From IMG/VR virus record IMGVR_UViG_3300038466_000011, positions 1 to 22,594 of that record: a DNA stretch of 22,594 bases; one strand, written 5' to 3'. Below are positions 5,682-9,410 of the stretch, one piece after another (within the stretch, counting starts at the first letter, position 1; every line of letters begins with the position of its first letter). This stretch comes from a virus. The notes beneath the pieces were generated by a model that was not told the DNA's origin, made no database searches, and saw nothing but the letters and a program-made list of their open reading frames with translations. The translations under genes and the position numbers were made by a program.

Positions 5682-6113
5682 ATGGCAGATGTGATATATA
5701 ACAGTTTCAAGAAAAATATAATGAATGGTACAATCGACCTCGACACGGATACCATTCAGGTTGGCTTGGTGACGAGTTCCTATACTCCAAACCAAGATAC
5801 TCACGAGTTCTGGTCTGACGTGACCAACGAAGTATCGGGAGCTGGTTATACAGCCGTTGGCGCAAGCGGTAAGGCCCTGGCCAACAAGGCGGTCACAGCG
5901 GACACCACGGACAATGAAGGCGTGTTTGACGCCGATGATGTTGTGTGGACTTCTTCTACCATTACAGCCAGGGCTGCGGTTTTGGTCAAGTGGACAGGCA
6001 ACGCGGCAACATCACCGATTATCGCTTATATCGACTTCGCCGCAAACAAGACATCGGATAATGGTACGTTTACTATCACATGGAACTCGGAAGGCATAGT
6101 CAACCTGAACTAG
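5682..6113 (+). CDS. Putative phage structural protein
   Basis: The 143-residue product begins MADVIYNSFKKNIMNGTIDL and contains DTIQVGLVTSSYTP, FDADDVVWTSSTITARAAV and the ending NGTFTITWNSEGIVNLN. These blocks fit a widespread phage structural protein of unknown location, beta-rich and about this length. A GGGAGG site precedes the ATG, and 13 bases separate it from the previous stop. It is often found beside fibre-like genes, as here. Confidence 0.65.
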   Translation: MADVIYNSFKKNIMNGTIDLDTDTIQVGLVTSSYTPNQDTHEFWSDVTNEVSGAGYTAVGASGKALANKAVTADTTDNEGVFDADDVVWTSSTITARAAVLVKWTGNAATSPIIAYIDFAANKTSDNGTFTITWNSEGIVNLN

Positions 6114-6147: not shown

Positions 6148-9066
6148 ATGTCAACTGTAATCCTAAGACCAAGCGGCGCAGGTGGTCTAACAGAACTAAC
6201 ACCCGTTGGTGAAGCCAGTAATTATCTCTGTGTAGATGAGGCAACGTCTGATGGAGATACTACCCGTGTTTCTCAGCCGTCATTTAACTATTTAGACCCA
6301 AAGAGGGACTTGTACGCCACCACTCATTCTATTCCCGCCGACGTAACAATTAACTCTGTCACTGTTTACGCCAAAGCAAGAAATAATGAGGTTGACCCTG
6401 GCGAGTTCGCTCTTGGGGTTGACGACGCTTCCGGTGCTGCGAGATGGTCTGCCGACAAAGCAACCACAACCAGCTACGCTGATTACAGTCAGGTCTGGAC
6501 AACACGAGCTGCCGGTGGTGCGTGGCAACACGCTGATATGGATAGTCTCGAAATCGGTGTTAGGACTAATGGCGACGACGGTAGTGGTTTTTACAACTAC
6601 ATAACCCAGGTCTGGTGTGTCGTTGATTATACTCCACCTGTCGGAATAGATGTGAACATCAATGCGACGGTCTTGTCGACTACGTTCAGCATGCCGACGA
6701 GTTTAGTCAGCATCGACAAGACAGTATCAGTTTCTGTTCTGGCAGCGACGTTTAGTATACCCGTCGCAATCGCCAAGGGTAACGTAGGGCTTGCAAACTA
6801 CAACTACAGCAAGGATATAGGGTTTGACACGAGCGCTGTTACCGGCATAGACATAGCTACCAATCAAGCGAACGTTCCAGTTTGTGTTCATATAGACTCA
6901 TCTTCTTGGCCGATAGCAACAGAGAGGGATGCGTTTTTCTGTTCAGCTAATGCGAATGGTAAGCGTGTCCAGTTTTATGATGCAGATGGTACGACTAACT
7001 TGCCTTATGAGGTTGAGAAGTATAACGAGGACACCCAGGAAGCTATCTATTGGGTTATGGTTACACAGATTGACGGGAACTCATCGACCGACAAAATGGT
7101 AGTCGGTTACGGGAATGATCCCTTAGGAGTAAACCAAGATAATCCGACAGATGTTTGGGATTCAGGTCACAAGGGGGTCATCCATTCTCCGTCTTATCCC
7201 TGGAAGCGAGAAGGGACTGTTCTTTCAGCATCCCAAGCATGGGAAGGTGGTAATGTTTACGAACCAAGTGTCTTATATGACAGTCCCACCTGGAAGATGT
7301 GGTATACGGGCGGATGGGTTAATCGTAACATCGGTTATGCTGAAAGCATTGATGGCAAAATCTGGACTAAGCATGCTAGCAATCCGATAGTAAGTAATGC
7401 TTCCAGGTCATTTGTCTTTATAGATAACTCAATCTACTATATGTTTTGCGCTAATGCAGACGATACCGCAATCAATTTATTGACATCAGAGGATGGTATT
7501 AGTTGGACACCACACGCAAGCAACCCGATGCTTTCACTTGGTACCGGCGGGGACTGGGATAACAATCATCTTGCCAATATAAGCGTTTATAACGACAACG
7601 GTAGTTGGAAGATGTTGTATGAGGCCAGTGGCAATGGTAGCGGTTGGCGCATAGGACTAGCAACAGCAAATAGTCCTTCTGGTACATGGACTAAATATAG
7701 TGGGAATCCGGTTATAAGCAAAGAGCCAAGCGCAGTTGGCGGACCCTCATTAACAAAGATCGGAAGTTACTATTATCTATGGCATCACCAAGGCTTGAAC
7801 AGTGGACTCCCAACAGACTTAAACAGGATGAGGTCAGTCGATTTAATTACATGGGAGAACTACCCTGATTATCGTACATCCATTAGAGAAGGAGCGGACG
7901 AAGGAGAACAAACATCTGTAGGACAGATGGCCGATCCCGACATCTTTGAGGTAGCTGGTAGGGCAGTCCTTTATTACGCAGCATCCAGTGATGGTGGCGA
8001 TGAAAACGCGGGACAGCACATCAAACTGTTAAGTTCTCAAATACCGATTTCAGAGATACTAAATACGTTTGAAGAAATACCTTATGACTCGACAATAAAT
8101 GCCTATCATGGAACTCCTGATGGTTCATCACGCACACCTGCAATGGTCAGCGATGGCCGAAGTTTTGACGGTGTGGATGACCACATAGACCTTCCGTCCG
8201 GCTTGCAACTCGGTACTGGCCAGTTCACTATTGAATGTTGGATTAAGACCGCAGATACGGGCGTGGCGGGATTTGTTAGTAACATGCACAACTCTGGTGC
8301 ATATGAAGGCGCGTCTATCTATTTAGATGCTGACAATAAACTAAAATTAAGATGCGCCGGTACCTCTAGTGGTGCAGAGATACAGGGAAACTCTACGATC
8401 AATGATAATACCTGGCATTATGTAGTTGGCAGAAGGAGCGCAGCAGGAGCGTTAAAGCTGTTTGTTGATGGTGTTGCTCAATCCTCCAGTGGTACGAATA
8501 CCGACGACGTAAGCTATGCGAACTACGTAATTGGTACGACTTATCCAGCAGCACCCACGACCAGCCCTCTTAATGGATTAATAGATGAGGTCAGAATATC
8601 ATCCATTGATCGTTCTGACGACTGGATAAAGCTAGTCTACTATTCGATAAAAAAGACCAACTGGCACGGTGATTCCTGGATAACCTGGGGCGACCAGGTC
8701 ACCAACGCTACGAACACAACAATATCTCCTGATGTTCTAAGTATGACGGCAAGTTTACCTAGTGCGACTGTTGCTATATCCACTCTAAAAAAAATCATTA
8801 TTAAATACAACATCGCAGAATTCGCAGGCAATGAGCTAATCCTCAAATACAACATTAGGCAGTTGGCTAGTAAAGATTTAGTTGTTAAGTATAACATCAG
8901 GAATTTGGTGGGGAAGGCTGTTAGATTCGTCTATAACATATTCGAGTCACTTCTAGGCAGATCTGTAGAGCCGATTGTAGCTAAAGCTATTCAACCTATA
9001 AGGGCAAGAGCAATAGATTCCATTAAAGCTAAGGCAATATCAGTCATTAAGGCAAGGAAGGGATAA
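6148..9066 (+). CDS. Mosaic tail fibre-like protein with beta-propeller and LamG
   Basis: This 972-residue protein is modular. Residues 1-160 form a phage-type N-terminal domain. About 165-210 holds paired VLSTTFSMP / VLAATFSIP repeats, with a third related copy (VLSMTASLP) near 860. About 215-340 resembles DUF2341 (PYEVEKYN, VVGYGN, VWDSGHKG). About 365-630 is propeller-like, with recurring blades such as SIDGKIWTKHASNPIV and SEDGISWTPHASNPML, reminiscent of GH43/GH32-type five-bladed folds. About 672-820 is LamG-like (SFDGVDDHIDLP ... LIDEVRIS). Residues 881-938 are four 14-15-residue KYNI repeats, then an AKAI-type 8-residue repeat to the end. The likely role is host glycan recognition, possibly hydrolysis. 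GGAAGGTGG ribosome site upstream. Confidence 0.75.
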   Translation: MSTVILRPSGAGGLTELTPVGEASNYLCVDEATSDGDTTRVSQPSFNYLDPKRDLYATTHSIPADVTINSVTVYAKARNNEVDPGEFALGVDDASGAARWSADKATTTSYADYSQVWTTRAAGGAWQHADMDSLEIGVRTNGDDGSGFYNYITQVWCVVDYTPPVGIDVNINATVLSTTFSMPTSLVSIDKTVSVSVLAATFSIPVAIAKGNVGLANYNYSKDIGFDTSAVTGIDIATNQANVPVCVHIDSSSWPIATERDAFFCSANANGKRVQFYDADGTTNLPYEVEKYNEDTQEAIYWVMVTQIDGNSSTDKMVVGYGNDPLGVNQDNPTDVWDSGHKGVIHSPSYPWKREGTVLSASQAWEGGNVYEPSVLYDSPTWKMWYTGGWVNRNIGYAESIDGKIWTKHASNPIVSNASRSFVFIDNSIYYMFCANADDTAINLLTSEDGISWTPHASNPMLSLGTGGDWDNNHLANISVYNDNGSWKMLYEASGNGSGWRIGLATANSPSGTWTKYSGNPVISKEPSAVGGPSLTKIGSYYYLWHHQGLNSGLPTDLNRMRSVDLITWENYPDYRTSIREGADEGEQTSVGQMADPDIFEVAGRAVLYYAASSDGGDENAGQHIKLLSSQIPISEILNTFEEIPYDSTINAYHGTPDGSSRTPAMVSDGRSFDGVDDHIDLPSGLQLGTGQFTIECWIKTADTGVAGFVSNMHNSGAYEGASIYLDADNKLKLRCAGTSSGAEIQGNSTINDNTWHYVVGRRSAAGALKLFVDGVAQSSSGTNTDDVSYANYVIGTTYPAAPTTSPLNGLIDEVRISSIDRSDDWIKLVYYSIKKTNWHGDSWITWGDQVTNATNTTISPDVLSMTASLPSATVAISTLKKIIIKYNIAEFAGNELILKYNIRQLASKDLVVKYNIRNLVGKAVRFVYNIFESLLGRSVEPIVAKAIQPIRARAIDSIKAKAISVIKARKG

Positions 9067-9410
9067 TGGTAGCCACTCCTATAATTGTCGATGCTGACAT
9101 AGAGCGAATCACCCCTTGGAAATATCCAGACGAGAAAGAGACATACGAGTTCGACTTCTCAAGTCGCATATCCACAGGCATTACGATCTCGTCAAAGTCT
9201 GCGACCATAGTCAAGGTGTCAGACACCTCGGTTGATGTCAGCACGCTGATAACTGCGAGTACCATAAGCGGAACTAGCGTAATGGTTACTGTTGATGGAG
9301 GCACGGATAAAGAGGACTACAAGATAACAGTTATCGCTACATTGTCCGACGGGCGCAAACCAGAGCTTGTCGCGGTATTGCCGGTAAGTAAGAAATGGAA
9401 AGCGGCGTGA
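9066..9410 (+). CDS. Putative Ig-like phage structural protein
   Basis: The ATG overlaps the fibre-like gene stop by one base (TAATG). The 114-residue product has ITPWKYPDEKETYEFDFSSR, then ITISSKSATIV, and ends ITVIATLSDGRKPELVAVLPV. The arrangement of strands is that of a small beta-sandwich, like phage proteins that accompany structural or fibre genes. It probably assembles with or caps the preceding protein. The 3' end overlaps the HNH gene by 16 bases. Confidence 0.6.
   Translation: MVATPIIVDADIERITPWKYPDEKETYEFDFSSRISTGITISSKSATIVKVSDTSVDVSTLITASTISGTSVMVTVDGGTDKEDYKITVIATLSDGRKPELVAVLPVSKKWKAA

Follow-up and report, generated by a model that had tools for sequence, protein, structure and literature searches.

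What is a propeller of glycosidase type doing inside a tail-type protein of a phage, and did it arrive there by insertion? The question is raised by an open reading frame of 972 codons in the window analysed here, a stretch of 22,594 bases that makes up an entire virus record and encodes a terminase large subunit, a portal and a major capsid protein. The terminase shares at most 55% identity with known phages, with phages of Firmicutes as top matches, and no close relative of the contig was found among the isolate phages searched. At the start of the contig (positions 5-199) lies a tandem array of an 18-base unit, GACACTAGGCAACGACGT, in 10.8 copies with 89% matches. The reading frame and its neighbours are listed below.

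5682-6113: phrog_644 gene, upstream neighbour.
6148..9066, + strand: mosaic tail-type protein, open reading frame of 972 amino acids, with the strong ribosome-binding-like stretch aaggaaggtggtg just 5' of its ATG.
9066-9410: Gp77-type fibre-tail adaptor gene, downstream neighbour (Pfam PF23148, 52 bits; cut-off 27).

The neighbouring phrog_644 and adaptor genes suggest a possible position at the tail tip for the 972-residue protein, which would be carried on the virion. Its domains follow one another in the order N-terminal beta domain, DUF2341, nested propeller, LamG, and C-terminal repeats.

Residues 1-216 (6148..6795, + strand): N-terminal phage tail-type beta domain, and linker with short TFSxP repeat units.
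Residues 217-334 (6796..7149, + strand): DUF2341 domain (Pfam PF10102, 32.8 bits; cut-off 23.4).
Residues 336-347 (7153..7188, + strand): junction motif VWDSGHKGVIHS, of which the V, W, D, S, G, V, and H columns are invariant in alignment A4.
Residues 348-646 (7189..8085, + strand): inserted segment of 299 residues (single MAFFT gap; junction census).
Residues 352-640 (7201..8067, + strand): five-bladed beta-propeller of the GH43/32/62/117/130/137 fold group (AlphaFold2, Foldseek, profile hits).
Residues 647-836 (8086..8655, + strand): LamG (concanavalin A-like) core (Pfam Laminin_G_3, PF13385, 81.7 bits; cut-off 27.6).
Residues 837-972 (8656..9063, + strand): C-terminal tail (direct reading).

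Residues 1-216 resemble part of a 1482-residue phage protein (L006), found near the same upstream neighbour gene. The C-terminal tail holds four YNI units at residues 887, 901, 915, and 929 (14-residue spacing; window 8806-8946), followed by units of I-A-K-A-I type; comparable short terminal repeats occur in other large proteins adjoining phrog_644 genes (L003, L005).

Both scaffold domains, DUF2341 and LamG, are nearly complete on either side of the insert. A DUF2341 profile built from phage relatives scores 67.2 bits on residues 217-346; the Laminin_G_3 match is near full length (profile 1-150 of 151), and a phage LamG profile gives 130.6 bits on the window protein (model 1-204). The DUF2341-LamG unit is common in phages, and several consecutive units are present in giant phage proteins of one contig (L100, IMGVR_UViG_3300022698_000267; the frames seen have 3146 and 1642 residues). 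The DUF2341 part gave no match in isolate phages. In the papers found to name DUF2341, none describes a role in phage tails; the only virus study among them lists the domain with transferred cellular genes.

Phage DUF2341-LamG proteins have the same two domains as the window protein, and the same VWDS...GV.H and DSTxN motifs, but lack the propeller. According to the initial annotation, a LamG segment directly follows VWDSxxxGVWH in related mosaic proteins, and about 300 residues would have been inserted at this point; both statements are borne out. Searched for as a DNA pattern, the motif has 55 in-frame sites, which lie on 53 stretches of viral DNA and nearly all continue directly into DSTxNxxxGT and a LamG domain; the GVIH of the window matches the GVWH of these relatives, its exact form having no instance in the scan, and the scaffold resumes with YDSTINAYHGT at residue 646. 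With the insert skipped, the window protein aligns contiguously with its relatives from DUF2341 through IDEVRIS (about 330 residues, 21-31% identity); with the insert kept and only insertion-free relatives given, MAFFT opens one clean gap, about 295 columns wide, that separates VWH from DST. In a census in which profiles from the relatives were run on every open frame of the collected loci, the gap between DUF2341 and LamG was at most 20 residues at 109 of 110 distinct junctions (89 loci), against 300 in the window; since most loci had been found by patterns needing VWD and VWH close together, the census describes that junction form, and other forms may escape it. One other exception was met (L123, IMGVR_UViG_3300013103_001392), a DUF2341-LamG protein with a junction gap of 191 residues and a domain of about 190 residues between GVWHL and KDSTSN (residues 163-352): it carries a whole domain at the same junction as the window protein, though a different one and not a propeller, with a complete LamG after it (157.7 bits). 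The reading of the propeller as an insertion is thus strongly supported.

Whole-protein searches of viral contigs and isolate phages returned no full-length relative of the 972-residue protein, and no relative was found that combines DUF2341, a propeller in the junction, and LamG. As no such relative was found, the mosaic rests on a single metagenomic contig, and an exact architecture with no second example might stem from an assembly that wrongly joined two genes. We regard such a joining error as very improbable: the frame is intact across both joints, which lie within a few residues of domain boundaries; scaffold and insert match their own families on either side; and GC content shifts only gradually across the joints.

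The place of the insert within the scaffold can be narrowed further. A strand is predicted at residues 341-345 (block pLDDT 86) in a structure model made from alignment A4, of which only the LamG part was used, the propeller part being poor because that alignment holds no propeller rows. The end of the junction motif (GVIH, or GVWH in the relatives) is probably the first LamG strand, an assignment kept at this strength because phmmer with the LamG of a relative found no match in the PDB at 1e-5. The loop receiving the insert would belong to LamG. We propose that this loop, just past the first LamG strand (GVWH ... DSTxN), took up a complete five-bladed propeller; as the two ends of the insert lie together in a single surface loop, the LamG sandwich could fold around it and project the propeller from the scaffold.

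The fold of the insert was predicted with AlphaFold2 from the insert alone and an alignment of seven relatives: five blades of three strands each, with a closing strand from the N-terminus (pLDDT 84.1, pTM 0.86). The initial annotation had placed a propeller at residues 365-630; the propeller stands, with a wider span of 352-640. Its case had been made to depend on such a fold and on the existence of insertion-free relatives, and a propeller is predicted while insertion-free forms are the overwhelming norm. The nearest solved structures in Foldseek are BT_0996 (TM 0.72; of a family that we take to be GH137), GH130 phosphorylases, and GH43, GH117, GH62, and GH32 enzymes; many viral proteins match as well, all at low identity. 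The five-bladed propeller fold that the GH43 family requires is present in the insert (AlphaFold2 and Foldseek). By sequence, the propeller-family profile matches GH43, GH117, and GH130 chains with E down to 5e-16; Pfam GH43 (PF04616) scores 29.1 bits on the whole protein and 32.5 on the domain alone (cut-off 32.2), and Pfam GH32N (PF00251) 24.4 and 30.4 bits, respectively (cut-off 22.1), the latter matching only one of the seven relatives. Descent of the propeller from the sugar-acting enzyme group GH43/32/117/130/137, the carbohydrate-active ancestry suspected at the outset, is supported by these matches. The propeller shares fold and blade motifs with these families, but its identity to solved GH structures is about 10-18%, and whereas they are secreted enzymes it is part of a tail-type protein.

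Whether it still cuts sugars was judged from the residues conserved among its relatives.

7261..7263, + strand: E372, conserved acid where the inner strand of blade 1 begins (invariant in seven of seven relatives).
7885..7938, + strand: R580, D584, G586, G592, Q593, and D596, polar cluster leading into blade 5 (ADP motif; invariant in all six relatives covering blade 5).

The inner strands of blades 1-5 start, in order, with E372; no acid; N477 (N in six of seven, D in one); G, C, or H; and D596 (six of six). The catalytic triad of GH43 consists of Asp in blade 1, Asp in blade 3, and Glu in blade 4. In the alignment of the insert with its relatives this triad is absent at blades 1, 3, and 4 in all five blade rotations, and direct reading of residues 348-646 finds none of the GH32 catalytic motifs NDPNG, RDP, and EC. 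Matching of the blades to GH43 blades by sequence was dropped, different profiles picking different registers; a circular permutation relative to GH43 is possible, given this disagreement.

The GH43/GH32-type depolymerase that the initial annotation had raised as a possibility is not supported: the catalytic residues of these families are out of place in every blade register, and the GH32 motifs are missing. As a broader proposal, namely that the propeller hydrolyses glycosides and opens the phage's way to the cell by cutting capsule or exopolysaccharide, it is doubtful and in our estimate rather unlikely, even though the fold group consists almost wholly of enzymes (Foldseek), n-bladed propellers are a recognised and well-known fold among phage depolymerases (PMC11326577), and E372, D584, and D596 are conserved acids that could serve a non-canonical catalytic mechanism; no register yields the triad, and the GH32 motifs are not in the insert. 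The invariance of R580, D584, G586, G592, Q593, and D596 suggests a working pocket. Since the canonical catalytic sets are missing and a different polar set (E372, R580, D584, Q593, D596) is conserved, glycan binding, that is, receptor recognition, is on the sequence data more likely than canonical hydrolysis, and we infer binding rather than cutting as the main activity.

Phage surface proteins often bear decorative domains, and the unrelated domain that L123 carries in this loop would suit a passive spacer, or a module of weak general stickiness to carbohydrate, in place of a specific receptor head. This we consider improbable, as a specific polar cluster is kept at 30-43% identity, and a spacer would not need one.

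The reading that we favour, with some reserve, is that of a tail adhesin of a tailed phage, in which a DUF2341-LamG scaffold carries a GH-derived propeller in a LamG loop as its glycan-binding receptor head. The product of 6148-9066 would be a tail-associated adhesin, the central pocket of the propeller would bind a glycan of the host surface, and the propeller would act as a recognition head resembling that of phage phi11. In the receptor-binding protein Gp45 of Staphylococcus phage phi11, a five-bladed propeller holds a cavity of GlcNAc size, and most of the folds closest to it belong to carbohydrate-degrading enzymes (PMC4901313). The Gp45 propeller follows a triple-helix stem, and the protein also has tower domains, whereas the window propeller is nested in a lectin loop; no triple-helical stem of the Gp45 type precedes it, its place being taken by DUF2341 (predicted mostly beta, with short helices), and no sequence relationship to Gp45 was seen in PDB searches. 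A receptor-binding role, also suggested by the initial annotation, is plausible from the position of the protein and from the Gp45 precedent. The propeller probably supplies the phage with a new element for attachment to its host.

Relatives of the propeller turn up in other settings. Close ones (30-43% identity) sit in phage tail-type proteins of other, unrelated layouts: at the C-terminus of a fibre-like protein of 1099 residues, three genes past the tape measure (L155); behind a complete LamG (L187); inside other long proteins (L188, L189); and in a prophage-like tail region of an Anaerolinea genome (L198), a locus that is probably a prophage, as a tape-measure gene is close by. More distant propellers appear to be nested at other points of the same kinds of scaffold. 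One appears to interrupt DUF2341 itself (L147:7260-10325), where joining the flanks turns a DUF2341 profile match over positions 28-62 into a continuous one over 2-63, below the cut-off; another (L178) lies between an FSGSESIE strand and the remaining LamG, where joining raises the LamG score slightly, from 48.3 to 53.2 bits, without extending its span, so that this nesting rests mainly on sequence reading. Similar nesting was judged by eye in L149 and L172. The contig that holds L172 and L176 (IMGVR_UViG_3300037498_000121) has, in L176, an open frame of at least 3,985 residues, mostly propeller-type blade repeats behind a LamG-like start. From these sequence comparisons we read the propeller as a mobile module, repeatedly inserted into one widespread kind of scaffold.

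Phages switch hosts by exchanging domains of their tails, and the exchange mostly takes place at the ends of fibres. In the window protein an entire propeller of enzyme type has seemingly been loaded into a single loop of a lectin-like scaffold, and the literature search turned up no earlier description of a propeller nested within DUF2341-LamG. A bolder proposal, which we put forward tentatively and hold to be unlikely in its entirety, is that the DUF2341-LamG loop is a general exchange port for whole recognition or enzyme domains, and that the window propeller is the founding member of a phage family not described before, made up of glycan-binding heads derived from enzymes (or else of enzymes with a new catalytic set), whose members enter further loops of these scaffolds as well. 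If the loop is such a port, it would provide a simple and testable rule for the diversification of the poorly known DUF2341-LamG proteins, and would single out a family of propellers with glycan targets that arrays could reveal.
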